From a virus, in the IMG/VR virus record IMGVR_UViG_3300042863_001519, positions 30,805 to 94,804 of that record: a stretch of DNA of 64,000 nt; one strand, given 5' to 3'. How positions within the stretch are numbered: the stretch's first letter is position 1; each line of letters begins with the position of its first letter. The notes beneath the pieces are model-generated. The model searched no databases. It saw only the letters and a program-made list of their open reading frames with translations, and had not been told where the DNA came from. Shown one piece after another: positions 3,317-53,648 of this stretch. The translations under genes and the position numbers were made by a program.

Positions 3317-3557
3317 CTTCGTTCTCTTTGTTGTCTTTTCTAAAATGAGCAATAAGATGAAGATATACTTCTTTCATTGCAAAAAACTCATGAGCCCAAT
3401 GTCCTTTTATAATCTTTTCAATAGAACCATCTGGCTGTACTACTGAATCATACAGATCTTCATCTGTTTTATTTTTTGTTGTATCTTTCCAATCTATTTC
3501 TGCAAGACAAGTTGCCAATCCATCAATGTCTATTATATCATATACCGTTTTATCCAT
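3282..3557 (-). CDS. hypothetical protein
   Basis: A 91-residue acidic protein with a DIDGLATCLAEIDW N-terminus and a charged KDNKENEDETGKKG tail. The central GHWAHEFFAMKEVYLHLIAHF segment looks helical. No known motif. Its 3' end overlaps the primase start. Confidence 0.7.
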   Translation of the reverse strand: MDKTVYDIIDIDGLATCLAEIDWKDTTKNKTDEDLYDSVVQPDGSIEKIIKGHWAHEFFAMKEVYLHLIAHFRKDNKENEDETGKKGRNNI

Positions 3558-4011
3558 TCTTCTGTCTTTTGTCTTTTAGTGATTCAATGTATCCTTCTAT
3601 TGCACTCTGGTAAATCTTTACCAGTAACTCATCTTGTACCATTGCTGCTTTCACATGACTCCCATTGAGTTTATATTTCCACATTAACTGTGCAGCTTCT
3701 CCCCAATTACAATCAGGCTCTGTCATAATTACATCAAGGTCATTTGCTTTTGCTATCTGATCACAGCTACTATAACCAGGATAATACTTCTCTACAAAAT
3801 CCCATGGGATGGTCAATTTCTGATCTTCATCTTTCTTTGTTTTTATGTATTTAAGTAGTATCAACCAAAGACTATCTAGTTGAATAGCATCGTATGCTTC
3901 TTGTAACTCTTCACCTTCCCATAAAGACTCAGAGGCCCTGGAAATCTCCAGGACCATCTTATCAAAGTCTTTTTTAGGCATTTCTACCATTGCTTGCTTA
4001 ATTGCTTTCAT
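3550..4011 (-). CDS. hypothetical protein with WDFVE-YYP-GYSSC domain
   Basis: A 153-residue protein. Residues 1-70 are helical and of unknown type. Residues 70-150 carry the block IPWDFVEKYYPGYSSCD ... AIEGYIESLK, which also makes up the whole of the small protein at 437-697. The shared cysteine and aromatic residues suggest a folded domain. Function unknown; the gene sits between SSB-like and primase genes. Confidence 0.75.
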   Translation of the reverse strand: MKAIKQAMVEMPKKDFDKMVLEISRASESLWEGEELQEAYDAIQLDSLWLILLKYIKTKKDEDQKLTIPWDFVEKYYPGYSSCDQIAKANDLDVIMTEPDCNWGEAAQLMWKYKLNGSHVKAAMVQDELLVKIYQSAIEGYIESLKDKRQKNG

Positions 4012-4012
4012 A

Positions 4013-4642
4013 TTATGCTTGTTGTATCTTCTGCATGTACTTTACCAAGAGCTGAGAGTGTTCCTTCTGAAACTCTATCATAACATCACGGTTGCTCTTT
4101 GTCATAGATGTTGGTATCTCTGGTAGTTCTATTCCATCAAGCATTTTTGCCATCTCAATCTTCTCCTGCATTACTTTGATAAAGTCAGCAGCACTCTGTG
4201 CTTTGATAGCAGGATTACCATCTGTAATTCTTCTTGTCCACTGTCTTTTTTGCTTATCTGCTACTGGTGTAGGCTCTACTACTGGTGCCGGTGTACCTGG
4301 TTCTGTTGCAAATCCTGGCATTATTGCAGCTATTCCTGTTCCGGTTACTTCATGTACATTGTTCAGTTCCATTGTTGGTGTTGTTTCTACTGTTCTATAA
4401 GCTAATTCTGCATATTGACCTAGTTGCTCAATAATAAAATCTCTTTGATCTTCTTCACAATCATCTTCATCAAGTAAGTACTCATTTACTTGTCTTATAT
4501 CTTGTACTTTGTTAAAAATATTCAAACAGTTGACAATTACATCTGGCTTAATGTCATTGATGTAAAATACTAATTCATTACTGTCTTGTGTATCAACTAC
4601 TGCAGGTATTGCACCATGTGTGCTTAATATGTAACGATTCAT
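4013..4642 (-). CDS. hypothetical protein with Pro-rich linker
   Basis: A 209-residue protein with an acidic N-terminal domain (about 1-85, including LLDEDDCEEDQRDF), a Pro/Thr/Val-rich linker (about 110-130) and a basic-to-helical C-terminal domain (QWTRRITDGNPAIKAQ onward, rich in Met and Lys). The linker indicates two separately folded parts. Function unknown. It is followed one base later by the 3550-4011 gene and preceded by the terminator after the SSB-like gene. Confidence 0.75.
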   Translation of the reverse strand: MNRYILSTHGAIPAVVDTQDSNELVFYINDIKPDVIVNCLNIFNKVQDIRQVNEYLLDEDDCEEDQRDFIIEQLGQYAELAYRTVETTPTMELNNVHEVTGTGIAAIMPGFATEPGTPAPVVEPTPVADKQKRQWTRRITDGNPAIKAQSAADFIKVMQEKIEMAKMLDGIELPEIPTSMTKSNRDVMIEFQKEHSQLLVKYMQKIQQA

Positions 4643-6398: not shown

Positions 6399-6767
6399 TT
6401 AATTGATTACTGCTTTAAAGATTTCTTTTACTTTGGCATCTAGTAGTTCCTTGTTATCTGAAAGTACACCGTTAAGTATCTTGTTACCTTGACTTTGCCA
6501 TCCAAATGAGTGTGAGAAGAAATCAGATAATTTTACTTGTTTGATTGTCTCTTGTATATGCTCATTTAATAGTTCTTTAAAGTTGGGTATCATATCCTGT
6601 ACACCTTCTTTTACTAGATCTTTTGCCAGTTTTCCCATAAGCACTCTTCCTCTTTCACCAGACACTGATACATCTCCTACACAGTTCCTGACATGCTTTC
6701 TTATCTCATCTGTCACTATTTGCTTTATCTCTTCTTCTGAGAGATAGTCTTCTATTTTTATTTCCAT
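6399..6767 (-). CDS. hypothetical helical protein
   Basis: A 122-residue protein, acidic and helix-rich, starting MEIKIEDYLSEEEIKQIV. No motif recognised. It lies between the helicase C-terminal gene and the Sak4-like ATPase gene with short gaps, so a replication or recombination accessory role is possible but only by position. Confidence 0.7.
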   Translation of the reverse strand: MEIKIEDYLSEEEIKQIVTDEIRKHVRNCVGDVSVSGERGRVLMGKLAKDLVKEGVQDMIPNFKELLNEHIQETIKQVKLSDFFSHSFGWQSQGNKILNGVLSDNKELLDAKVKEIFKAVIN

Positions 6768-6780
6768 TTTTTATAGTTAA

Positions 6781-7890
6781 TTAATCAAGAAAATATGCAC
6801 CTGATGTTACTTGCTGGTATATCTCTTCCTTGATATCTTTCTTTCGAGGAAGGGTGCGAAAAATCCCATATTCCGGTTGTAGTGCCATAGGAAACTGTAC
6901 ACCATTTGTACCAAAGGAGTTTTTGAGAATGTGTAATGATCTGTAATAGGTTTTGAAAAATTCATCTCTAAAACCTTTCAGTACATAACCATTCTCTTTG
7001 TGTCCATCTAAGTCACCTACAATATGTCTGTATGGTTCGAACAATGCAAGAACAACATCAGCATCGTGTTGTGTTTGAGATGAATCAGCAAAGTCACTGA
7101 GCTTTGGTGCTAAATCACCGAGTTTCAATCTTGATACATCGGCCAGGTTACGATTCAACTGTTGGATTACAACTGGTGAGAAACCATAGATGTCCCTTGC
7201 CTGTCTCATTACAGTACTGAACTTATCAATCTGTCCTTTAGACTTCTCAAGATCCTTCTCTGGTTTTAAAATACCAATGTGGTCAACAATAACCAGTACG
7301 ATGTGATTAGGATGATTAGGAACATATGTACGATCAGCAAGGATATTTTCCATGCTTTTGTTACTCTTATCCTTGTCGATAATGGTACCGTGTTTCCTTG
7401 CAAATGCCTCTAGGTAAGCACTGATACCGGAAGGGTTCTTACTGCCCTCAAATGCTATCAGCAAGTCATCTGTTTCCCATTCATCTAGTATAGAATAATT
7501 CATCTGTACCAAAGCATACTCCTGGTCATCCATCTTAAAGTTCTTCTGCCGACTCAATAGTTTTTTAGGTGGTATAGGAATACCCTGTTCTGTGAATATC
7601 TTTCTAGCCAACCATCGTGCACTGTACTGGTACATCTTACGTTCCATACCAAACAGAATGATACTCAACTTGATATCAGGACTTTTGTTGTTCAGATACC
7701 ACTCTATAGGTCGTATCATGAACATATCTTGTGCCAAAGTGCTCTTGCCTGAGTTATGTACCAGTATTGGATCTTTTTGTGTTGCCAGATAGAAGTTGTT
7801 ATTATCTTCTACCGATATGTCATATGTTGTTTCGTAAGGAATCTCCTCAAATGAAACAATATCCTGAAGATTTATAACAGATGCTTCCAT
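6781..7890 (-). CDS. DnaB-type helicase, C-terminal part, fused to split-intein C-half
   Basis: A 369-residue protein in two parts. Residues 1-46 are the C-terminal half of an intein: TTYDISVEDNNNFYLA is block F, and ILVHN ending at residue 46 is block G with the terminal His-Asn. Residue 47 is the +1 Ser, and SGKST continues the Walker A motif of the helicase. Residues 47-369 form a RecA-like helicase domain, with LVIVDHIGIL as Walker B, VVIQQLNR as the Gln motif and a late Asp/Arg region. Joined to the 48-residue extein encoded at 8383-8832 it would give a 371-residue helicase with an intact GETGSGKST loop. There is no room for a DnaB N-terminal domain. The protein is expected to be inactive until trans-splicing. 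The intein reading is strong. Confidence 0.9.
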   Translation of the reverse strand: MEASVINLQDIVSFEEIPYETTYDISVEDNNNFYLATQKDPILVHNSGKSTLAQDMFMIRPIEWYLNNKSPDIKLSIILFGMERKMYQYSARWLARKIFTEQGIPIPPKKLLSRQKNFKMDDQEYALVQMNYSILDEWETDDLLIAFEGSKNPSGISAYLEAFARKHGTIIDKDKSNKSMENILADRTYVPNHPNHIVLVIVDHIGILKPEKDLEKSKGQIDKFSTVMRQARDIYGFSPVVIQQLNRNLADVSRLKLGDLAPKLSDFADSSQTQHDADVVLALFEPYRHIVGDLDGHKENGYVLKGFRDEFFKTYYRSLHILKNSFGTNGVQFPMALQPEYGIFRTLPRKKDIKEEIYQQVTSGAYFLD

Positions 7891-8417
7891 GTTCTTTTTT
7901 GTATTATATTTTTAACAACATCAACTGTAGTTCCAAACTTGTCAGCAAGTTCCTTTCTTGTCATACACAATTGACCATTCTCATCATACTTGTTCTTTCT
8001 CCCATGCTTCCACAACTTTCTCATCTCTATCACATCTTCATCTTTTAAATTAGTGTGAGGGTTTCTTTCACCTGTAATGTTTCTTCTTTTACAAGTAAAT
8101 GACCATTTCTGATTCTCACTTGCTGTACACCACTCCAAGTTAATAAGCCGATTGTCTGTACGGATATGGTTAATATGATTTACCTGTGGCTTGTTTTCAG
8201 GATTAGGAAGAAATGTTTTTGCTACTATCCTGTGGACTTTTACAGTTTCGATTTTCCCCTGATCATTTTTTAACATTGTTCGGAGATAACCTGAACCATC
8301 TAAAGCAGGTTTCATTATTCTTTCCTGTCCTGTATTTTTCCAGTTGTAGGTCTTTATTTCACCATCTGTACTAACTTCATAACTACTGTATCCCGGTATC
8401 TTTTTCCATTGCTTCAT
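7872..8417 (-). CDS. free-standing HNH homing endonuclease (NUMOD4-HNH) between split-intein halves
   Basis: A 181-residue protein. Residues 1-45 (WKKIPGYSSYEVSTDGEIKT) are a NUMOD4 domain. Residues 60-110 are an HNH nuclease core (VKVHRIVAKTFL ... VNHINHIRTDNRLINLEW, with N/H pairs and the trailing N-LEW). Residues 115-181 are a helix-turn-helix DNA-binding tail (TNLKDEDVIEM ... RKELADKFGTT). It overlaps the N-intein gene by 35 bases and the C-intein gene by 19, filling exactly the place an inserted endonuclease domain would occupy in a normal intein. It should cleave intein-less helicase genes and so promote spread of the element. Confidence 0.88.
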   Translation of the reverse strand: MKQWKKIPGYSSYEVSTDGEIKTYNWKNTGQERIMKPALDGSGYLRTMLKNDQGKIETVKVHRIVAKTFLPNPENKPQVNHINHIRTDNRLINLEWCTASENQKWSFTCKRRNITGERNPHTNLKDEDVIEMRKLWKHGRKNKYDENGQLCMTRKELADKFGTTVDVVKNIIQKRTWKHLL

Positions 8418-8832
8418 GTTGCAAAGATAGTAATAAATCTTTGATTTTCACAAACTTTTCCCCGGTAAAAAATTCATGATTTTCGGTTACGTTTATAACT
8501 GTTCCGTTTTTCATTTTTATTCTGAGTAGTTTGTCAACATGAGTCTTATGAGTTATGGTATTGGTAACAGTTTTATACTCATTAACCTTGGTCTTCAGAT
8601 TATAAGACAATACCTTATCTCCTACTTTTATTTGAGAAATAGGCATTACCCCTTGTTCTGTATGAACCAACTGTTCTCCAGTAAAACAACCTGTTTCTCC
8701 CCCAATAACATAACCTGTATTTTTAGCAATATCAATATAATCACCTACCCTGTCATAAGGTACAGGTATAATACCGGCTTTACCGTTTCTACCGTTCTCA
8801 ATCTCTTTATGTAATTGCTCTGATAAACTCAT
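8383..8832 (-). CDS. DnaB-type helicase, N-terminal part, fused to split-intein N-half
   Basis: A 149-residue protein. Residues 1-48 are the helicase start and end in YVIGGETG, the first half of a Walker A motif. Cys49 begins the intein: CFTGEQLVHTEQGVMPIS-QIKVGDKVLSYN is block A. KLLRIKMKNGTVINVTENHEFF carries block B, with the conserved His of the T-x-N-H motif. The frame ends about 10 residues later, a normal break point for a split intein. Its tail is coded by DNA that also holds the start of the HNH gene. Splicing to the 6781-7890 product would restore the P-loop. Confidence 0.9.
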   Translation of the reverse strand: MSLSEQLHKEIENGRNGKAGIIPVPYDRVGDYIDIAKNTGYVIGGETGCFTGEQLVHTEQGVMPISQIKVGDKVLSYNLKTKVNEYKTVTNTITHKTHVDKLLRIKMKNGTVINVTENHEFFTGEKFVKIKDLLLSLQHEAMEKDTGIQ

Positions 8833-9344: not shown

Positions 9345-11420
9345 TTAAAACAAACTTATCTGACCACTTTCTTTCTCTTTTCTATCACGTTGATATATAG
9401 GAGAAATCTTGTCAATTATCTTATTGGTTGCACGTATGTAATACGTATAATCAATACCGTAGTCGTCCCAGTTTTCAGCACTAAAAGGTTTGTTGTACAG
9501 TACCTGGAGCTCACTATCTGATTCACAATTGCTCTTCTCTGGACCTGTTTTATCACTGTTTGGGTTCTTCATCTTATACAACTTCTCACCAATACCTTTT
9601 GAGCAGTAATAACGTACTAGCTTGTTGAGATCAGTTACTGTACCAGTTTTTCTATCAACACTTCGATAGAAGTAATCCCTTGATGCTTTCTTGGCAATAC
9701 AGAAATCGAAGATGTTTCTATGACTTATCACAGTATCTTCAACCGGAATACCCTGAGTAAAGTACTTCTCTAATGCTATAGGAACAATACATTTACTCTT
9801 GTTCTTGTGCAACTCATAACTTGTAAGGAAATCACCTTTCTTTTTTACTCTTTTGTCAAGAGGTTTGTCAATAACTATTGCTTTAAACTCACCATCTTTA
9901 AATACCCAGTCAGCTTTCTTTACTGCCAGATAATCATTAACGGATGTTTGTACAAACAATTCGTACTCTACATACTCCAAGTTACCAAGAATGTCATTAC
10001 CAACTTCTTCTTCCCATGTTTTACATGCATCATAATACTTCTGTACATAATCTTGATGAATCAGTACAGTAATACCATCGGTATTCATACTAGTTATCTT
10101 GAGTGTTGGTATTTGTAGCAGATCCTCAGCTAACATAAATAGATCAACTTGACCACCAATAGTTACTTGCATACTTGCAAATGGGTCATATTGCCAATCA
10201 AACCTATCACCAAGTCGGCCAAAATTCCCATTCATTACTAATTTATAACATTCTTGGAAATTATCATACTTCTTATCACCGGTTTCCTTATACAACTTTT
10301 TAGCCTCTAGTCTCTTTGGAATGTTTATCACATATGCTTCATTCCACTTTGGTCCAAGGTGTGCAGGATAAATGTTTCTTTTACGTATGTTGTTAGGATA
10401 CTGTGAGCCTACGTCAGCATCAATTAGTAGATAACCTTTAGGTATATCAATAATTCTAGGGTTATCTGCAGAGTGTACACCACCCTTTGCAAACATTATT
10501 GTAATGTCAGTAAGAATAAATGGGAACTCCTGTTTTTCATTGAGATTAACCTTTGTCTTACCCAAGTTTGTAAAAAAGTTATTAAACTCAGCTGTATCAA
10601 AATGAGTGTAGTCAGGAAAGCAATCCTTAAATCGGAAACCTGTTTTAGTTTTCCTCTCTTTTACTTTACTATACAACTGAGCTTCATTGATCTTTGCCAG
10701 ATCCATGTACACTTTCTTGTTTAGCTCGGCACCGATCTTAACATCATTCCAGTTAATTGCAAGAGATGGAAACTTATACTCCTCAATAAGATCAAGTCGT
10801 AACTGTACTTTGTTCTTCCCTGCATAATCAGGATGATTAGTATTACCTACTGCAATGTTGTAGAGATTTGCTGTAGCAGCTACATCGTTCCAACAATACT
10901 CAATAACTTCATCAATCTCTTCAGAAGTTAACTCTTCTTTACGAAAGTCAATAGGCAATTCTTCGATGTTACCATCTAAAGAAAACTCTCCAGCCCACTT
11001 CAAAGAACATCTCTTGGCATCATTGTTGTAGTGAAACAACAGAAACAGATCAATCTGTTTGAAGTCAAGATAATGTTCTTTGTAGTGAGGTTGTAATTCG
11101 TAGTTCCTATCATCAATCGTCTTTTGTGCAAACTCAAATATAGCTCTGATGATACGTTCAACCGGCCAGTGTATCCACAATGAACAGTTATCTACTATAA
11201 ACTGAAGTACTTGGGTATCAAAGTAAACTCCATTAAAAGTACAAAATCCCCATCTGTTATACTCAATTAAATGTTTTACAAGAGCATCTAATTGATTTTT
11301 CCTAGATGAAATTTCATACTGAAATCTTTCATTAGTTTTTATATCAAGACCGCAAAACAAAAACATTGAGTAATAGGTTTCAATATCTATCACTTCTATT
11401 TTTAAATCTTCACTTTTCAT
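9345..11420 (-). CDS. family B DNA polymerase with 3'-5' exonuclease
   Basis: A 691-residue replicative polymerase. The exonuclease motifs are present: Exo I DIET at 12-15, Exo II FNGVYFD ending at D68, Exo III YCWNDV with D179. Polymerase motif A is DADVGSQYPN (334-343), motif B is KLVMNGNFG (393-401), and motif C is SMNTDG (444-449), where Asn replaces the first Asp of the usual DTD. The C-terminus GQISLF looks like a sliding-clamp binding peptide (QxxLF). The size is small for family B, typical of compact phage enzymes. The present ATG at 11420 is probably a replacement start: a GIY-YIG gene has been inserted just upstream and the original first codons lie stranded at 12223-12270. Confidence 0.92.
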   Translation of the reverse strand: MKSEDLKIEVIDIETYYSMFLFCGLDIKTNERFQYEISSRKNQLDALVKHLIEYNRWGFCTFNGVYFDTQVLQFIVDNCSLWIHWPVERIIRAIFEFAQKTIDDRNYELQPHYKEHYLDFKQIDLFLLFHYNNDAKRCSLKWAGEFSLDGNIEELPIDFRKEELTSEEIDEVIEYCWNDVAATANLYNIAVGNTNHPDYAGKNKVQLRLDLIEEYKFPSLAINWNDVKIGAELNKKVYMDLAKINEAQLYSKVKERKTKTGFRFKDCFPDYTHFDTAEFNNFFTNLGKTKVNLNEKQEFPFILTDITIMFAKGGVHSADNPRIIDIPKGYLLIDADVGSQYPNNIRKRNIYPAHLGPKWNEAYVINIPKRLEAKKLYKETGDKKYDNFQECYKLVMNGNFGRLGDRFDWQYDPFASMQVTIGGQVDLFMLAEDLLQIPTLKITSMNTDGITVLIHQDYVQKYYDACKTWEEEVGNDILGNLEYVEYELFVQTSVNDYLAVKKADWVFKDGEFKAIVIDKPLDKRVKKKGDFLTSYELHKNKSKCIVPIALEKYFTQGIPVEDTVISHRNIFDFCIAKKASRDYFYRSVDRKTGTVTDLNKLVRYYCSKGIGEKLYKMKNPNSDKTGPEKSNCESDSELQVLYNKPFSAENWDDYGIDYTYYIRATNKIIDKISPIYQRDRKEKESGQISLF

Positions 11421-12192
11421 TCTTTTTGGTTTTTATTCTATTATTTACAATAGGGTATCTATCATACATCAAAAGAAATTCCTTAATTTTTCTACAATTT
11501 GCTGCATATATTCTTACAGTAGATGTTGCACAGTTTAAATAATTTGCACATTTTTCATCATTATTAAAAGTTTCAACAACTGTGTAATCTAAATTACAAA
11601 GCAATAGTGTTCTTCTATTTTTAAAAGTTTTTCCTTTTGTTTTGCTAATTCTTTTTTCTATAGAAGATTTACTTTTTTTCTTACCTTTCCAATAATCACT
11701 TATTTTCTTTTTATGATCAATTGTTAAAAGTTTTCCTGTATTTGCTGCAATAATTGCGGATAAAGTATTAGGGTGCTGAGGTCTTCCTTTCATTTGTTTT
11801 GATTTTTTTGCCTTAAAATCATCACTATGTCGAAAACCTGCATTTGTGCCGGCTATTTGAACAATATTGTACTTTAATTCTATTGGATATTTATCTAAAT
11901 AAAATTGTTCACGAGAGAGTATAAATTTTATCATTTCTTGCTTTGAAACAAACTGACTTTTATCATACTGTTCAATAATCTCAAAATAAAAATTATCTGC
12001 ACCATACTTGTTATAAGCATTTTGCATCTTTTTACAACCGTGTACATTTTTATTTAGTTCTTTTAAATGTAGATGATACCTGTTACTAAAACTACAAAAA
12101 GAACTGCCTATATAAACTTTGTTTGAAATAGGAGTATATATTTGATATACTCCTATTTTTATACCTTCTCCTCTTATTAGTAATGATTTCAT
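11410..12192 (-). CDS. GIY-YIG homing endonuclease with NUMOD3 repeats
   Basis: A 260-residue protein from the ATG at 12192. The GIY-YIG nuclease domain is in the first 90 residues (KIGVYQIYTPISNKVYIGSS, then RYHLHL, and the NAYNKYGADNFYFEIIE block). Two or three NUMOD3-type repeats follow (GFRHSDDFKAKKSKQMKG; GKLLTIDHKKKISDYWKGK), then a basic C-terminal helix-turn-helix region. It overlaps the first 11 bases of the polymerase gene. It lies between the stranded original polymerase start and the present one, so it looks like a mobile gene inserted at about codon 10 of the polymerase. Confidence 0.9.
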   Translation of the reverse strand: MKSLLIRGEGIKIGVYQIYTPISNKVYIGSSFCSFSNRYHLHLKELNKNVHGCKKMQNAYNKYGADNFYFEIIEQYDKSQFVSKQEMIKFILSREQFYLDKYPIELKYNIVQIAGTNAGFRHSDDFKAKKSKQMKGRPQHPNTLSAIIAANTGKLLTIDHKKKISDYWKGKKKSKSSIEKRISKTKGKTFKNRRTLLLCNLDYTVVETFNNDEKCANYLNCATSTVRIYAANCRKIKEFLLMYDRYPIVNNRIKTKKNEK

Positions 12193-12222
12193 TTTACAAA
12201 AATAGTAAAATTTTATCAAAGT

Positions 12223-12270
12223 TTACGACTTTAAAAATAAAATCTCTAATCTGAGTTCTTCTGTCTTCAT
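12223..12270 (-). pseudogene. stranded original 5' end of the DNA polymerase gene
   Basis: A 15-codon frame starts with ATG at 12270 and reads MKTEELRLEI before drifting into LFLKS and a stop. The first ten residues match the polymerase start MKSEDLKIEV at every position, either identical or conservatively replaced. The ATG overlaps the TGA stop of the upstream gene (ATGA), the junction expected for the original polymerase start. The reading as a relic left by GIY-YIG insertion is an inference, but the alignment and the junction agree. Confidence 0.75.
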
Positions 12271-17771: not shown

Positions 17772-18653
17772 CCATCAGGTATGTTAACTTATAGTTTCCT
17801 ATAAGATCGGACTATATCATCACCCTTCTCATTAAGAGTTAGGGGCCGGGCACTTATACTGGTAATTAAGAACACTATAGTTCTCCAGTAGTCTCTGAAC
17901 CTTTATAGAGTGTACTCTATACTTGGATGCTGATTGGCATATCATTTCTGACTTAGCTTTCCAGCAGTTCACCTCGGTTTTTATTTTCATCCATCTCTGG
18001 AAGGGGTTTCATGGCTCTTTTGTAATTTCTAAGTTCTAAAATAGACATAGGTTTGAGATACTCTTTTTCAAAGTTGCAACTAGCAAAATCTTTAAAATAA
18101 TATCTGTTTGCAGAATCATAAAATATAGCAGCATAAAAAGAATCTTTAAATCTTCCAATTTTTGTTGGACCAGCTCCTTTTTTTATAGTAATTGAAGAGG
18201 AATAATAATGATAAATTTTTCTACCGTTATTATCAGATGTAAGTTGTACACCTCTATATCCGGTTTTATTATCTACCCTTAATAACTTCTTTTTACTATT
18301 GTTTTCATTAGTACATACTCTAAGATTAACAATTCTATTGTCATCTTTTATGTTGTTAATATGATCAATTTGCATATTATCAGGAATTAATGTACCTGTA
18401 TGCAAAAACCAACATAATCTGTGGTATGTGCTTCTATATTCTATATTATCTACTGTAATGTAGATACATTCTCTATAACCTTTTATTGTCTTTCTTGTGT
18501 AAAGTCTATTTTTACGAATGTTGTTTATCTCACCAGTATTGAGATCATAACTAAACATACGCTTGAACACATCTTTTACTCTTTCAGAACTTGCTTCATT
18601 AAATGTTTTTCGGACTCTTTTCATGAAGCAAATATACAAAATTTTATTCTTAA
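17772..18653 (-). ncRNA. group I self-splicing intron carrying an HNH gene
   Basis: The conserved core is visible on the minus strand: P element AACTGCTGGAAAGC (17951-17969), Q AATCAGCATCC (17925-17935), R GGTTCAGAGACTA (17889-17901) and S ATGATATAGTCC (17809-17820). They are in the right order and spacing. The predicted 5' splice site follows GGGTT (U last), the intron ends in G at 17772, and joining restores the frame (MIGF then SGNKY). Neither the exact splice sites nor the internal guide pairing can be proven without an experiment. The endonuclease frame sits in the 5' part, and its end overlaps the P element. Confidence 0.85.
17953..18624 (-). CDS. HNH/AP2-type homing endonuclease inside the group I intron
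   Basis: A 223-residue protein from the ATG at 18624. An HNH core occupies about residues 60-115 (YRSTYHRLCWFLHTG, DHINNIKDDNRIVNLRVC), followed by an AP2/NUMOD-like region with GYRGVQLTSDNNGRKIYHY and GRFKDSFYAAIFYD. The C-terminal codons overlap the catalytic P element of the intron. The protein should cut intron-less copies of the host gene and drive homing. Confidence 0.85.
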   Translation of the reverse strand: MKRVRKTFNEASSERVKDVFKRMFSYDLNTGEINNIRKNRLYTRKTIKGYRECIYITVDNIEYRSTYHRLCWFLHTGTLIPDNMQIDHINNIKDDNRIVNLRVCTNENNSKKKLLRVDNKTGYRGVQLTSDNNGRKIYHYYSSSITIKKGAGPTKIGRFKDSFYAAIFYDSANRYYFKDFASCNFEKEYLKPMSILELRNYKRAMKPLPEMDENKNRGELLES

Positions 18654-18769
18654 AACCCAATCATTGTAGTACTATCTCTCTTGGTAGAACCACCCATCAG
18701 TGTGAGTGCATTTACATCAATTTGTCCTTTGTTCTCGATAAGGAGAAACTGCTTGTTTGTGTTTTCCAT
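18654..18769 (-). CDS. GHKL ATPase gene, exon 1
   Basis: The first exon encodes 38 residues plus two bases: MENTNKQFLLIENKGQIDVN ... LTLMGGSTKRDSTTMIGF. The GGSTKRD/MIG run is the usual stretch before the nucleotide-binding loop of phage GHKL proteins. The frame stops with TAA four codons into the intron, so it makes sense only if the intron is removed. It is joined to exon 2 at 16595-17771. Confidence 0.75.
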
Positions 18770-22615: not shown

Positions 22616-22638
22616 GTGGACCTGCTCGGAGTCGAACT
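22616..22638 (-). pseudogene. stranded tmRNA 3' end (T-loop and acceptor strand)
   Basis: Read on the minus strand, the segment carries TTCGACT (canonical T-loop), CCGAG (T-stem 3' strand) and CAGGTCC-A (acceptor 3' strand with discriminator). It begins right at the HNH stop codon. CAGGTCC can pair with the 5' GGGCCCG of the tmRNA at 6 of 7 positions. This is what remains if an HNH element inserted into the 3' end of the tmRNA gene and supplied its own 3' end. A functional role cannot be ruled out. Confidence 0.6.
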
Positions 22639-23177
22639 TACACTGATTGATATGTTCTACCAGCACTAATATCCCTTATTACAGTCTCTTTTATTTTAAA
22701 CTGTATAGCGATGTCTTTTACTTTCTTTTCTTTAGTTGCTAATAGTCTTTTTATTTCTATAGCATTTTCTCTAGACAGCTTTCTATTGCATATAGATTGA
22801 AACTCTATTACTTTAGGCACATGATCAAACTTAGAGTAATGACCATGTACATATCTGCCATTTTGTTTTCCTTTAGCTTGTCTGAACTTGTTTACTTTAT
22901 CTTGACAGTTGTCATTGTGTGTACCTACAGACAGATGAAAAGGATTTACACATGCTGGTACATCACAAGAATGCATGATTACTTTTCCTTCTGGTATAGT
23001 TCTGTTATAGTAATACATATAAGCAACCCTATGTGCTCTATGATGTAGTTTACATCCATCTACAACTTCTTGAATAATACCATAGCCATCTCTACCTAGT
23101 CTTTTGTATAGTATACATTCGTTCTTATCTATATTCTGCAGATAAGGCTTTATTCTATTCATTACGCTTGTTGTCAT
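22638..23177 (-). CDS. HNH homing endonuclease next to tmRNA
   Basis: A 179-residue protein. The HNH core includes HHRAHRVAYMYYYNRTIPEG and VIMHSCDVPACVNPFHLSVG (Cys/His-type HNH, residues 55-90). A basic QAKGKQNGRY stretch and a helix-turn-helix tail follow (SRENAIEIKRLL ... VKDIAIQFKIKETVIRDIS). Its stop directly abuts a second tmRNA-like 3' end, and a terminator separates its start from the tmRNA. It probably targets the tmRNA 3' end of related phages or hosts. Confidence 0.88.
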   Translation of the reverse strand: MTTSVMNRIKPYLQNIDKNECILYKRLGRDGYGIIQEVVDGCKLHHRAHRVAYMYYYNRTIPEGKVIMHSCDVPACVNPFHLSVGTHNDNCQDKVNKFRQAKGKQNGRYVHGHYSKFDHVPKVIEFQSICNRKLSRENAIEIKRLLATKEKKVKDIAIQFKIKETVIRDISAGRTYQSV

Positions 23178-23246: not shown

Positions 23247-23616
23247 TAGTGGACCCGGAGGCATCCGAGAGCCTCGTCCAAACAGTGTTCCTCTCAAAAA
23301 AGTTACGACTATGACTTGTTTTTACTCTGCTGTCTTCAGAGATGCTTGAAAGTTCTGCATAATCTACATCTACTTACAACGTCAATAGTTTTTATTTTAA
23401 ACAGTCAGATTTCTCTTCTTATCTGTGGTGAATTAGGCTGCTTCTGCTACTAGAGCATTTGCAAAGCACATATTAATAATACGTGCACCTTCTTCCTGAC
23501 GAGCAACTTTTTCGTTGTTTGCATCTATTGTTTGAATCTATTTATTTAAAGGACTACATCCTTGTCCTTAGTCGCCTTTTCTACTATACTAGCTGCTGTC
23601 AAAACCAATCGGGCCC
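23247..23616 (-). ncRNA. ssrA: transfer-messenger RNA (tmRNA)
   Basis: The minus strand starts GGGCCCGATTGGTTTTGACAG, with the tmRNA acceptor and the conserved GGTTT-GAC D-region. Its first seven bases pair with CGGGTCC near the 3' end (one G-T pair). A resume region AATAG-AT-GCAAACAACGAAAA is nearly identical to the standard one, with GCA as resume codon at 23522. The tag frame runs 29 codons to TAA at 23433, reading ANNEKVARQEEG ... ANALVAEAA, longer than most host tags and ending in an Ala-rich degradation signal. The 3' end is GAGGC-loop-GCCTC-CGGGTCC-A, with CTA in place of encoded CCA. The 8-base loop is not canonical. It should rescue ribosomes stalled during infection. Confidence 0.9.
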
Positions 23617-49959: not shown

Positions 49960-50667
49960 ATGACCAACGAGTTATTACAGGTAAAATTTCAACAGCGGCT
50001 TAATAAACTATCATCTAGCGATTATGGGAACATAGAATGCTGGATGATAGCTGAAGCCTTTAACAAAGGCATGGATGCTTGGGTATCCAGGCAGTTGCAA
50101 GGTATTAATCAAACCAAGAGTACTGCAGAAGGATCTATTAGGAGTATAGACAAGCTCCAAGTAATTTTGAAACAATCTCCTCTTGCAATGGTTGATCAGG
50201 GTATTTATTGGGATGTAGATCTTCCAACTGATTATCTTGAATGGTCAAGGATAAGTGCAGATGCTCAAGCAGGAGATTGTTGTCCTCCAAGAAGACTCAA
50301 GATATTTCTTGGTGAAGAGGCCGATATGGACATGGTACTCTTAGATAAAAACAGACAACCTTCTTATGACTGGGGAGAGACAGTTGCCACAGTAATGGGT
50401 AAGAAGTTTAAAATCTATACAAACAAGTGTTTTGATATTGTCAATTCTACCATTACCTATTACAGAAAATCAATTCACATAAAGATAGAAGGATGTACTG
50501 ATCCTGATACAGGATTGATTGTACCTCCCGGAGATGGGATAGAATGTGAATTTCCAGATAACATAATAGAGATTCTTATTGATGAAGGTGCAGCAATTCT
50601 CGCAGATGATATGGACAACTATACAAAACAACAAAACTTAAATATGAATGCCGAACGCAATAACTAA
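49960..50667 (+). CDS. head-tail connector-like protein
   Basis: A 235-residue protein. ELLQVKFQQRLNKL is followed by NIECWMIAEAFNKGMDAWVSRQLQG, then GIYWDVDLPTDYLEWSRIS, a pattern of a connector/adaptor family in crAss-like phages. The last residues LNMNAERNN overlap the start of the GIY-YIG gene and appear again (LNQSAERNN) at the end of that gene. This suggests that the original 3' end was displaced by insertion. Confidence 0.7.
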   Translation: MTNELLQVKFQQRLNKLSSSDYGNIECWMIAEAFNKGMDAWVSRQLQGINQTKSTAEGSIRSIDKLQVILKQSPLAMVDQGIYWDVDLPTDYLEWSRISADAQAGDCCPPRRLKIFLGEEADMDMVLLDKNRQPSYDWGETVATVMGKKFKIYTNKCFDIVNSTITYYRKSIHIKIEGCTDPDTGLIVPPGDGIECEFPDNIIEILIDEGAAILADDMDNYTKQQNLNMNAERNN

Positions 50668-51409
50668 CATAGCAGGTATTTATAAAATTACAAATCTTGT
50701 AAATGGTAAGTTTTATATTGGTAGTACGTGTAATTTAAAAAGACGTAAGGGGAATCATTTTGCAGAACTGAATAGAAATAAACACTGTAATATTAAGTTG
50801 CAGAATGCATGGAATAAATACGGAGAAAAGGCATTTTACTTTGAAATTATATCTACCTGTCCGAAGGAATATCTTTTAAAATTAGAGTATTGGTTCATAA
50901 AAACATTATCTCCTTTTTATAATATTATTCAAGTACAGGAAGATTACAAAATAAAGATTAAATCTTTACATAAAAATAAGTTTAGAGAGTCTGTAAATCC
51001 AAGGGGATCAATACCCATATCTGTTTTTGATATAAACAATAATTTAATTGCTAATTTTGTATGTCTTTTAAGATGTGCAGAGTTTTTAAATACTCCAGTT
51101 TCGGGTATAAGTAAATGTCTTAAAAAAGGAAGACCTTTAAACAATAAATATATTTTTAAATATACCAAGAAAGATAATATTGAATATATAGATAATCGAT
51201 TAACAAGAGCAAAACTCTTTACAAAAGAAGGTCAGTTCTTAGGATTATTTGATACTTATGAACAGTTAGCAAAACATTTAAGTGTAAGTAAGGATACAGT
51301 TTATAGAACTATTAATAAAAAGACTACATTTTTATCGGCCAAATATCTTATATTTAAAGAGAAAGATAAAATGCAAGTACTGAATCAAAGTGCAGAACGT
51401 AACAATTAA
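50648..51409 (+). CDS. GIY-YIG homing endonuclease at the 3' end of the connector gene
   Basis: A 253-residue protein. The nuclease core is AGIYKITNLVNGKFYIGSTCNLKRRKGNH, then NAWNKYGEKAFYFEIIS. The C-terminal half is DNA-binding: IPISVFDINNNLIANFVCLLRCAEFLN and LGLFDTYEQLAKHLSVSKDTVYRTIN (helix-turn-helix). It starts inside the end of the connector gene, and its last 12 residues (MQVLNQSAERNN) repeat the connector C-terminus. That tail is probably the stranded original 3' end of the connector gene. Confidence 0.9.
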   Translation: MPNAITNIAGIYKITNLVNGKFYIGSTCNLKRRKGNHFAELNRNKHCNIKLQNAWNKYGEKAFYFEIISTCPKEYLLKLEYWFIKTLSPFYNIIQVQEDYKIKIKSLHKNKFRESVNPRGSIPISVFDINNNLIANFVCLLRCAEFLNTPVSGISKCLKKGRPLNNKYIFKYTKKDNIEYIDNRLTRAKLFTKEGQFLGLFDTYEQLAKHLSVSKDTVYRTINKKTTFLSAKYLIFKEKDKMQVLNQSAERNN

Positions 51410-51434
51410 TGACACCATAGTAAAATTTTAATAA

Positions 51435-53648
51435 ATGTCTTTACCAGTACTAAACCGACTAGGTTTTTGGTATGCAACTACTAACACACCATCTCTTGTA
51501 GATGGTGTTGGTACTTTAGGGGACTGCTATCAAATAGTAACTACTAATTTAACAGCAGATCCTCCTGCTGGTTACTTTATGTTCAATAGGGACTTGGGTA
51601 GTGGTGTAAAGACATGGATATCAACTCTTTACGTTTATTATGATGGTGCTGAATGGCAGATGATTGGTGGTGTTAGTGGAGGTGGTTCCGGCACTGTTAC
51701 CCAAGTAAATACTGCAGGTCTCATCTCAGGTGGACCAATAACAACTACTGGTACTATATCTACTTCTATGAATACCAATAAACTGGTAGGTAGAAGTACT
51801 GCTGGCACAGGTGTTATGGAGGAGATTATAGTAGGTTCTGGACTTACTCTTACAGGAGGTACGCTTAATAATACAGCTACACCATCACCACTTGGTTACT
51901 ATGGTGCATGGCAGGATAATATTACTCAAACTGCAGCAGCAAGTAATGTTGGTTATCCTATGAAGTTTAGGATAGCAGATATTACTCCTAATGGAATATC
52001 TATTGTCAGCGATACTAGGATAACTTTTGCAAACACTGGTATTTACAACATACAGTTTTCTTCCCAGTTTCAAAATACAGATAATACACACCATGATGTA
52101 ACTATTTGGTTGAGATTAAATGGTTCTGATGTTACAGGTTCTTCGGGTTTAGTATCTGTTCCTGCAAGAAAATCAGCAAGTGCAGGTGATCAAGGTCACA
52201 CTATAACAAGTTGGAATTATTTACTAAGTGTTGTAGGTGGTCAGTATTATGAAATTGTGTGGAGTACTGAAGATCATACACATGTTACTATGCAGTTCTA
52301 TGCTGCAGGTAGTCCACCACCATCAGCAGCTTCTGTTATTCTTAGTGTTACACAACAGTCAGGCATTATGGCTGGCACTGGTATAACTGCAATAAACAGT
52401 CTTACAGGTGCTGTTCAAACAATGGTACCCGGTACAACAGGAACTGATTTTGCAATATCTTCTAGTGGTACTGCTCATACATTTAACTTACCAACAGCAT
52501 CTGCTACAAACAGAGGAGCTTTATCTTCTGCTGATTGGAGCACTTTTAGTGCCAAAGTACCAGCAGGTTCTGTTACAACTTCTGGTCTTACTCAGACTAC
52601 TAATAAACTTCTAGGTAGAGGAACAGCAGCTACTGGGGCTATTGAAGAAATAACACTAGGTACCAATCTTAATCTATCAGGAACAACATTAAATGCTGCA
52701 AATCCTCCTGGAGGATCTACTACCCAAGTACAGTATAATAATGCTGGTTCTTTTGGTGGTGCTGCTAATGTTACTATAGATACAGATGGTAGACTCATAT
52801 TTCCTGCCGTTAGTGCCCTTCCTACAATATCTACTGGTGGTAAACTATATGGTGATACATCATCAGGATTACCCCAAGCTAGATGGTTGCCTAATCTAGG
52901 AATAGATGCACCACTACAAAGGAAACTAGGATATGGTACTATAGGTTCTATAACTCCTTCAGCTGTCAGTACTCTTTTTGCAGAGGGACATTTTTCAGGA
53001 GCATCTATTCAGACTAACCCTGTCAGTACCGGTAGTAATAACAGTGGTAAAACACACAGCAGTACTAGTGTGTTGTCATGCAAGACTAGATATGTAATAG
53101 CTAGTGCAGCTGCAATAAACTCTACTGCTCTTGTAAGAATGGGTAACTCTCAGGCCAGTGGTCTAATAATGAATGACAGTGTATATGGTGGTGGCACATT
53201 GCTAACAATAGTGGTAGGTTTTCCTGCATATGCATCTACAGAGAGAGTGTTTCAAGGATACCAAACATCTAACTCTGCTATTGCTAATAACGTAGATATA
53301 TCTACTCTAACCAACATGTTTGGTATAGGAAAAGATACTGGAGATACTAATTTACAATGGATGCACAATGATGGTTCTGGTACTGCTACCAAAGTAGACA
53401 CAGGTATAGCTATCAGCACTAATAATGTATATACTATAGAGCTGTTTGTACCTTCCAACAGTACTGCTATGTACGGAGCACTATATGAGATGACTAAAAC
53501 TACTAATGCTTTAATCAGTACAATCACAGCTAGTACTAACATACCAGCTGTAGGTACTAGGTTGTTTTTCCAGCAGTTTATATCAACAGCAGCAGGCACT
53601 GCTTCCATATCTTTGGCTATTATAACAACAGTAGAAGAAAACTATTAA
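51435..53648 (+). CDS. large tail fibre or receptor-binding protein
   Basis: A 737-residue protein. Residues 1-75 share an NTPSLVDGVGTLGD ... DLGSG pattern with the 53936-55093 protein. Two related segments (TNKLVGRSTAGTGVMEEI and TNKLLGRGTAATGAIEEI) are internal repeats of a known tail-fibre domain. Between them is a jelly-roll-like domain (GIYNIQFSSQFQNTDNTHHD). The C-terminal 250 residues are Ser/Thr-rich. It probably determines host range. Confidence 0.8.
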   Translation: MSLPVLNRLGFWYATTNTPSLVDGVGTLGDCYQIVTTNLTADPPAGYFMFNRDLGSGVKTWISTLYVYYDGAEWQMIGGVSGGGSGTVTQVNTAGLISGGPITTTGTISTSMNTNKLVGRSTAGTGVMEEIIVGSGLTLTGGTLNNTATPSPLGYYGAWQDNITQTAAASNVGYPMKFRIADITPNGISIVSDTRITFANTGIYNIQFSSQFQNTDNTHHDVTIWLRLNGSDVTGSSGLVSVPARKSASAGDQGHTITSWNYLLSVVGGQYYEIVWSTEDHTHVTMQFYAAGSPPPSAASVILSVTQQSGIMAGTGITAINSLTGAVQTMVPGTTGTDFAISSSGTAHTFNLPTASATNRGALSSADWSTFSAKVPAGSVTTSGLTQTTNKLLGRGTAATGAIEEITLGTNLNLSGTTLNAANPPGGSTTQVQYNNAGSFGGAANVTIDTDGRLIFPAVSALPTISTGGKLYGDTSSGLPQARWLPNLGIDAPLQRKLGYGTIGSITPSAVSTLFAEGHFSGASIQTNPVSTGSNNSGKTHSSTSVLSCKTRYVIASAAAINSTALVRMGNSQASGLIMNDSVYGGGTLLTIVVGFPAYASTERVFQGYQTSNSAIANNVDISTLTNMFGIGKDTGDTNLQWMHNDGSGTATKVDTGIAISTNNVYTIELFVPSNSTAMYGALYEMTKTTNALISTITASTNIPAVGTRLFFQQFISTAAGTASISLAIITTVEENY

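Follow-up and report, generated by a model that had tools for sequence, protein, structure and literature searches.

A GIY-YIG homing endonuclease gene that very likely entered a crAss-like phage connector gene together with a divergent replacement for the severed gene end

Results

A GIY-YIG reading frame overlaps the end of a connector-like gene

The DNA analysed here, a stretch of 64,000 nucleotides that we refer to as the window, comes from a 94.8-kb virus record. The source phage is crAss-like, and its major capsid protein has a match in the crAss capsid family. Two genes after the capsid gene there is a gene for a connector-like head/neck protein (Table 1), the body of which is, by identity profile, closest to that of L002, a relative without a homing endonuclease gene (HEG) at this locus. 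We found no PDB match for the connector, and found no connector gene of this kind in named phages. The protein has the C-terminus KQQNLNMNAERNN, its terminal residues before the stop codon being TKQQNLNMNAERNN. Within its final codons, in another frame, starts an ORF for a GIY-YIG/NUMOD1 protein with the C-terminus KMQVLNQSAERNN, giving an overlap of 20 nt; the original prediction described the two C-termini and the out-of-frame overlap correctly. The GIY-YIG ORF keeps the invariant residues Y12, Y23, G25, R33, H37, E80, and N92, and its DNA-binding module was identified as NUMOD1 (Pfam, 1.3e-5), which appears as a repeated module in the predicted structure. On the basis of the catalytic domain, NUMOD1, polymorphism at the site, and the absence of an intron or intein, we classify the product as a putative free-standing homing endonuclease for which cleavage and preferential inheritance are predicted. 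The same arrangement was present in an independent contig (L001) that was 99.1% identical to the window over 7.6 kb (56 mismatches), which excludes an assembly error.

Table 1. Features of the connector and polymerase loci (window coordinates)
Feature	Position	Strand	Basis
Connector-like head/neck gene, 235 aa; proposed invaded gene	49960..50667	+	PHROG 29507 virion structural protein, E 6e-8; relatives L002-L010; identity profile
GIY-YIG homing endonuclease ORF (putative), 253 aa; residues 241-253 apparently not its own	50648..51409	+	Pfam GIY-YIG 3e-9, NUMOD1 1e-5; PHROG 7168 3e-23; I-TevI catalytic domain 1e-10
GIY-YIG catalytic domain, residues 10-89	50675..50914	+	Pfam match 10-89; confident predicted fold, pLDDT mostly 86-97
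Copy A, proposed replacement connector 3' end, 13 codons and stop; holds the GIY-YIG start codon	50626..50667	+	L006-like
Copy B, proposed displaced native connector 3' end, 13 codons and stop; in frame with the endonuclease, gives its stop codon	51368..51409	+	L002 nt 6667-6708; 31/39 nt to L002, L007
Next gene, shared with relatives	51435..53648	+	Directly after the connector in L002 and L006 (empty site)
Proposed displaced start of DNA polymerase (MKTEELRLEI)	12241..12270	-	Match to the native start in HEG-free L185/L191; 98% identity over the 300 nt upstream
Second GIY-YIG endonuclease ORF, at polymerase 5' end	11410..12219	-	Same arrangement in contig L184
Proposed replacement for first 180 nt of polymerase	11241..11420	-	64% identical to L185 versus 97% for the rest

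Relatives without the endonuclease place the insertion inside the coding region

The endonuclease was absent from this site in five distinct connector relatives (L002/L003, L004, L005, L006, and L007; 74–82% amino acid identity), so that a single connector site is polymorphic for the presence of the HEG among relatives. L002 DNA aligned with the window through the entire connector up to the stop, and L002 nt 6667-6708 aligned twice, to 50626-50667 and again to the end of the GIY-YIG gene, from which the alignment ran onward into the shared next gene, to 51868. Since these last 42 nt of L002 match twice, 42 nt of the 3' end flank the insert on both sides. By this comparison the connector reading frame was interrupted 13 codons short of its stop; the relatives thereby agree with the earlier proposal that the HEG was inserted near the connector 3' end and that the old end was left fused to the endonuclease. 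Among 92 connector loci pooled from several scans (some contigs were fetched twice), the connector C-terminus was repeated downstream in the window's phage only (score 44 versus ≤35 elsewhere), and no insertion at the same site was found in wider relatives; the connector insertion was seen in one lineage only.

The two 3' ends resemble different relatives

Copies A and B matched at 23 of 39 nt, and a codon-level comparison found that, of the five AERNN codons, four differ at the wobble position, confirming that the two ends use different codons. AERNN is the C-terminus across the whole connector family and is ancestral for it, which is why both copies carry it; its presence in both therefore shows connector origin, and what informs on the history is the KQQN/KMQV difference together with the empty site. 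The connector ends in KMQ[AV]LNQNAEHSN in L002, L004, L005, and L007, and in KQQNLNQNAEHSN (KQQNL type) in L006. The GIY-YIG tail is of the KMQ[AV]L type, matching L002 and L007 at 31 of 39 nt each and sharing the stop codon of the native L002 connector end; as the binomial P for this match is ~1e-11 at window composition, the likeness is not due to chance. The present connector end of the window is of the KQQNL type and matches L006 at 31 and L002 at 25 of 39 nt, i.e., the displaced C-terminus is closer to the sister L002 than the inserted one is. Informative sites within the window's connector were L002-like at 24 of 28 positions in the 108 nt upstream and L006-like at 8 of 9 in the last 42 nt, a switch with a Fisher P of ~1e-4, the sites not being fully independent. 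An IMG/VR scan found the KMQ-type end in five native connectors and the window's phage and nowhere else, and the KQQN-type end, in the IMG/VR viral-contig scan, was found in L006 and the window's phage only. No donor with the same HEG was found in the viral-contig scans.

With a tail of L002 type and a connector end of L006 type, the resident end is the one now on the endonuclease, and the present connector end is a foreign allele. The original prediction had a recoded copy restoring the connector; a replacement end is upheld by this comparison and a synonymous rewrite of the resident end is not, as the new end is probably a foreign L006-like allele brought in with the HEG, a link to L006 that is based on few sites (8 of 9).

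A second GIY-YIG gene lies at the polymerase 5' end in the same genome

A parallel with the polymerase gene had also been proposed, and we found it to be real and sharper, with 180 nt at 64% identity giving way to 97%. Two HEG-free relatives (L185 and L191, 95% amino acid identity) show the native polymerase start, which in the window persists on the minus strand, with its ATG at 12270, upstream of the second GIY-YIG gene. So abrupt a change in identity suggests a single replacement event that came with the HEG, in which the polymerase start would have been swapped.

Cultured Bacteroides phages carry similar arrangements

When PhiCrAssBcn18 was compared with crAss001, the upstream gene was 99.6% identical and the HKD gene was 50% identical over its first 60 nt versus 98.5% over the rest; the native first 25 HKD codons persist upstream of a short GIY-YIG remnant. 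This phage suggests that a gene-end swap may outlive its nuclease. The GIY-YIG gene at the HKD 5' end (L218:889-1185) appears truncated, and the replacement HKD start is still present.

In Kehishuvirus 'tikkala' an HNH endonuclease (WEU69811.1) lies between the lysozyme and HKD genes (L220:761-1300 versus L219:301-774). The last 60 nt of this HNH gene match the 3' end of the crAss001 lysozyme gene exactly (60/60) and are read in frame as YAEDPQYVEKLKNIVKRYE; the lysozyme of tikkala itself ends in recoded form, as YATDTNYIQKVKSIEHGLSKN. The HNH start lies within the lysozyme gene, giving an overlap of 20 nt as in the window, and the displaced end keeps its native 8-nt overlap with the start of the downstream gene. 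Judged by these alignments, tikkala is a cultured phage with the same gene-end arrangement as at the connector, here involving a nuclease from an unrelated family.

Terminal duplications at other endonuclease loci

We scanned 95 loci around GIY-YIG genes (some redundant) for terminal duplications, using as the null 1121 mismatched pairs (99% point 44.8, maximum 62). Strong matches were obtained for the start of a nucleotidyltransferase-like gene (L082, L083, L087, L088, and L073; scores 87–107) and at the 5' end of an HKD nuclease gene in the crAss-like cr112_1 (L203; score 76). At a further locus (L041, score 59) a displaced start, MNAQRQTNTFVGGMNI, is in frame at the endonuclease N-terminus, a fusion that is the mirror of the connector case. 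A wider scan found a 3'-end case with an antisense HEG in L033, L035, and L044 (scores 63–65). Weak matches in L049, L029, L014, and L025 are plausible candidate cases. In L049, the ORF at 3385-4434 is an in-frame fusion of a GIY-YIG domain to the N-terminus of a host gene, and what may be the displaced host end follows it (score 51). Most scanned GIY-YIG loci had no detectable terminal duplication, and gene-end swapping is not the sole mode among them. The scan is blind to strongly recoded ends (it failed on tikkala, where the empty-site comparison was decisive) and so understates the frequency.

The window's HNH genes at 7872, 17953, and 22638 had no terminal duplication. The first of them (7872-8417) lies between, and overlaps, two ORFs that look like halves of an intein-split, helicase-like P-loop protein (window 6781-8832, minus strand), which we take to resemble the published 'fractured gene' split-intein arrangement. 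At 17788-18660 (minus strand) a group I intron (17788-18048; Rfam, 70.9 bits) overlaps a 235-aa HNH ORF (17953-18660). A full-length tmRNA match (23247-23616, minus strand; Rfam, 62 bits), which ARAGORN did not report, lies just upstream of the third HNH gene (22638-23177).

Discussion

We consider it very likely that the HEG was inserted in the connector gene with a divergent replacement end and that the resident end was displaced onto the endonuclease. A free-standing GIY-YIG HEG would have entered 13 codons before the stop, bringing with it a divergent replacement for the severed end that completes the connector, and the resident end would have been carried beyond the insert, so that it now forms, in frame, the final 13 residues of the endonuclease and provides its stop codon. 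What carries this reading are sequence comparisons, namely the empty site, the origin of both ends, the fusion, and the occurrence of similar arrangements at other sites and in a second nuclease family. Homing is what we infer from them: the enzyme would cut the uninterrupted gene end of HEG-free phages during co-infection, and repair from the carrier would copy the HEG together with the carrier's replacement end. The divergent end would keep the gene working while lacking an intact target, and its different sequence would also make it ill suited to the direct-repeat recombination that could delete the HEG. We read such loci as candidate homing cassettes consisting of an endonuclease and a replacement gene end.

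We weighed this history against a tandem duplication in place, by which the connector 3' end was duplicated at HEG insertion and the copies later drifted. Both copies do keep AERNN, as a direct repeat flanking the HEG, but they resemble different HEG-free relatives, L006 and L002. Furthermore, in PhiCrAssBcn18 and tikkala the displaced ends are identical or nearly identical to crAss001 and the new ends differ at about half of positions between flanks of 98–99% identity, which makes drift after duplication very unlikely in those phages; for the connector we regard a duplication as improbable. It is also quite improbable that the tail is functional, with the connector-derived residues binding the connector protein or autoregulating the endonuclease. 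The tail has been kept in frame with no early stop and AERNN is unchanged, but residues 244-253 are predicted to be disordered (pLDDT <50), and the native 8-nt overlap kept by the displaced end in tikkala offers a simpler reason for its retention there. We regard it as, most probably, a passive scar, and it needs no removal step given the predicted disorder and the same kind of fusion in another nuclease family.

We give hardly any credence to the possibility that the tail is native to a GIY-YIG gene that landed, tail included, between two genes, copy A being in that case the original connector end, never altered. An intact connector such as this could be native, but it turns from L002-like to L006-like near its end, and the tail runs into resident downstream sequence as L002 does. 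The original prediction had pointed to GIY-YIG proteins with unrelated neighbours as the place where a conserved tail should be sought, and the viral-contig scan returned only native connector ends and this phage. Lastly, we rejected as barely credible that the element is spliced, whether as a group I intron or as an intein, copy B then being the real exon and copy A a pseudo-exon: intron HEGs are common and the window has a genuine group I intron elsewhere (17788-18048), but there is no intron match at 50300-51800 and hence no group I intron core at the site, the connector has its own stop, and Pfam finds no intein domain in the ORF.

An HEG inserted together with a replacement end suggests how a selfish nuclease gene can sit in an essential gene without splicing, i.e., by bringing a differently coded copy of the part it severs. 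If this is true, abrupt jumps in divergence at phage gene ends would be explained and some intergenic HEGs would actually be intragenic. More broadly, we somewhat favour the view that many 'intergenic' free-standing phage endonucleases are really intragenic cassettes that pair a nuclease with a replacement terminus. Such cassettes would be natural home-and-rescue drives, employed by both GIY-YIG and HNH enzymes, that would repeatedly rewrite the ends of essential genes and leave fused remnants of the old ends as footprints. For annotation, the warning is that part of an endonuclease ORF can be the end of a host gene. The mechanism is testable, as cultured Bacteroides phages with and without cassettes exist.

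The closest precedent is found in fungal mitochondria, where mobile ORFs replace gene 3' ends and push the native end downstream (Allomyces atp6; Glomus atp6, atp9, cox2, and nad3; PMC3630166). In both systems an endonuclease ORF adjoins an essential gene at its 3' end, the inserted C-terminus is divergent and in frame with the host gene, and the native C-terminus is displaced downstream and is closest to sister species (PMC3630166). The phage case differs in that the end is much shorter, at 13 codons, the displaced end is fused in frame to the endonuclease, and there are mirror cases at 5' ends. In open-access literature, our coverage of which was not exhaustive, we found no phage precedent for gene-end swapping; in the passages of Barth et al. 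2023 that we consulted, HEGs near or within essential genes are covered and replacement ends are not described (PMC10448857).

The free-standing HEGs of T4 are placed in intergenic regions (PMC2988022). SegC, SegF, MobA, and MobC are, as here, compact GIY-YIG or HNH genes that overlap the upstream gene by 11–24 nt (20 nt for SegC), and T4 free-standing HEGs are likewise variably present and adjoin essential genes; however, they are described as inserting between genes, whereas here the insertion lies inside a gene that a replacement end appears to repair (PMC2988022). T4 gene 39/60 shares with our case an HEG in an essential gene and a compensating change, which in T4 is a 50-nt bypass insert in gene 60, but T4 gene 39/60 is split into two subunits and the connector gene stays whole (reviewed in PMC5009743). 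By analogy, we read the gene-end cassettes as a natural counterpart of synthetic "home-and-rescue" drives, which work alike in placing a nuclease in its target gene with a rescue version; those drives are engineered CRISPR constructs in Drosophila, and the parallel is one of analogy and not of family (PMC7968924).
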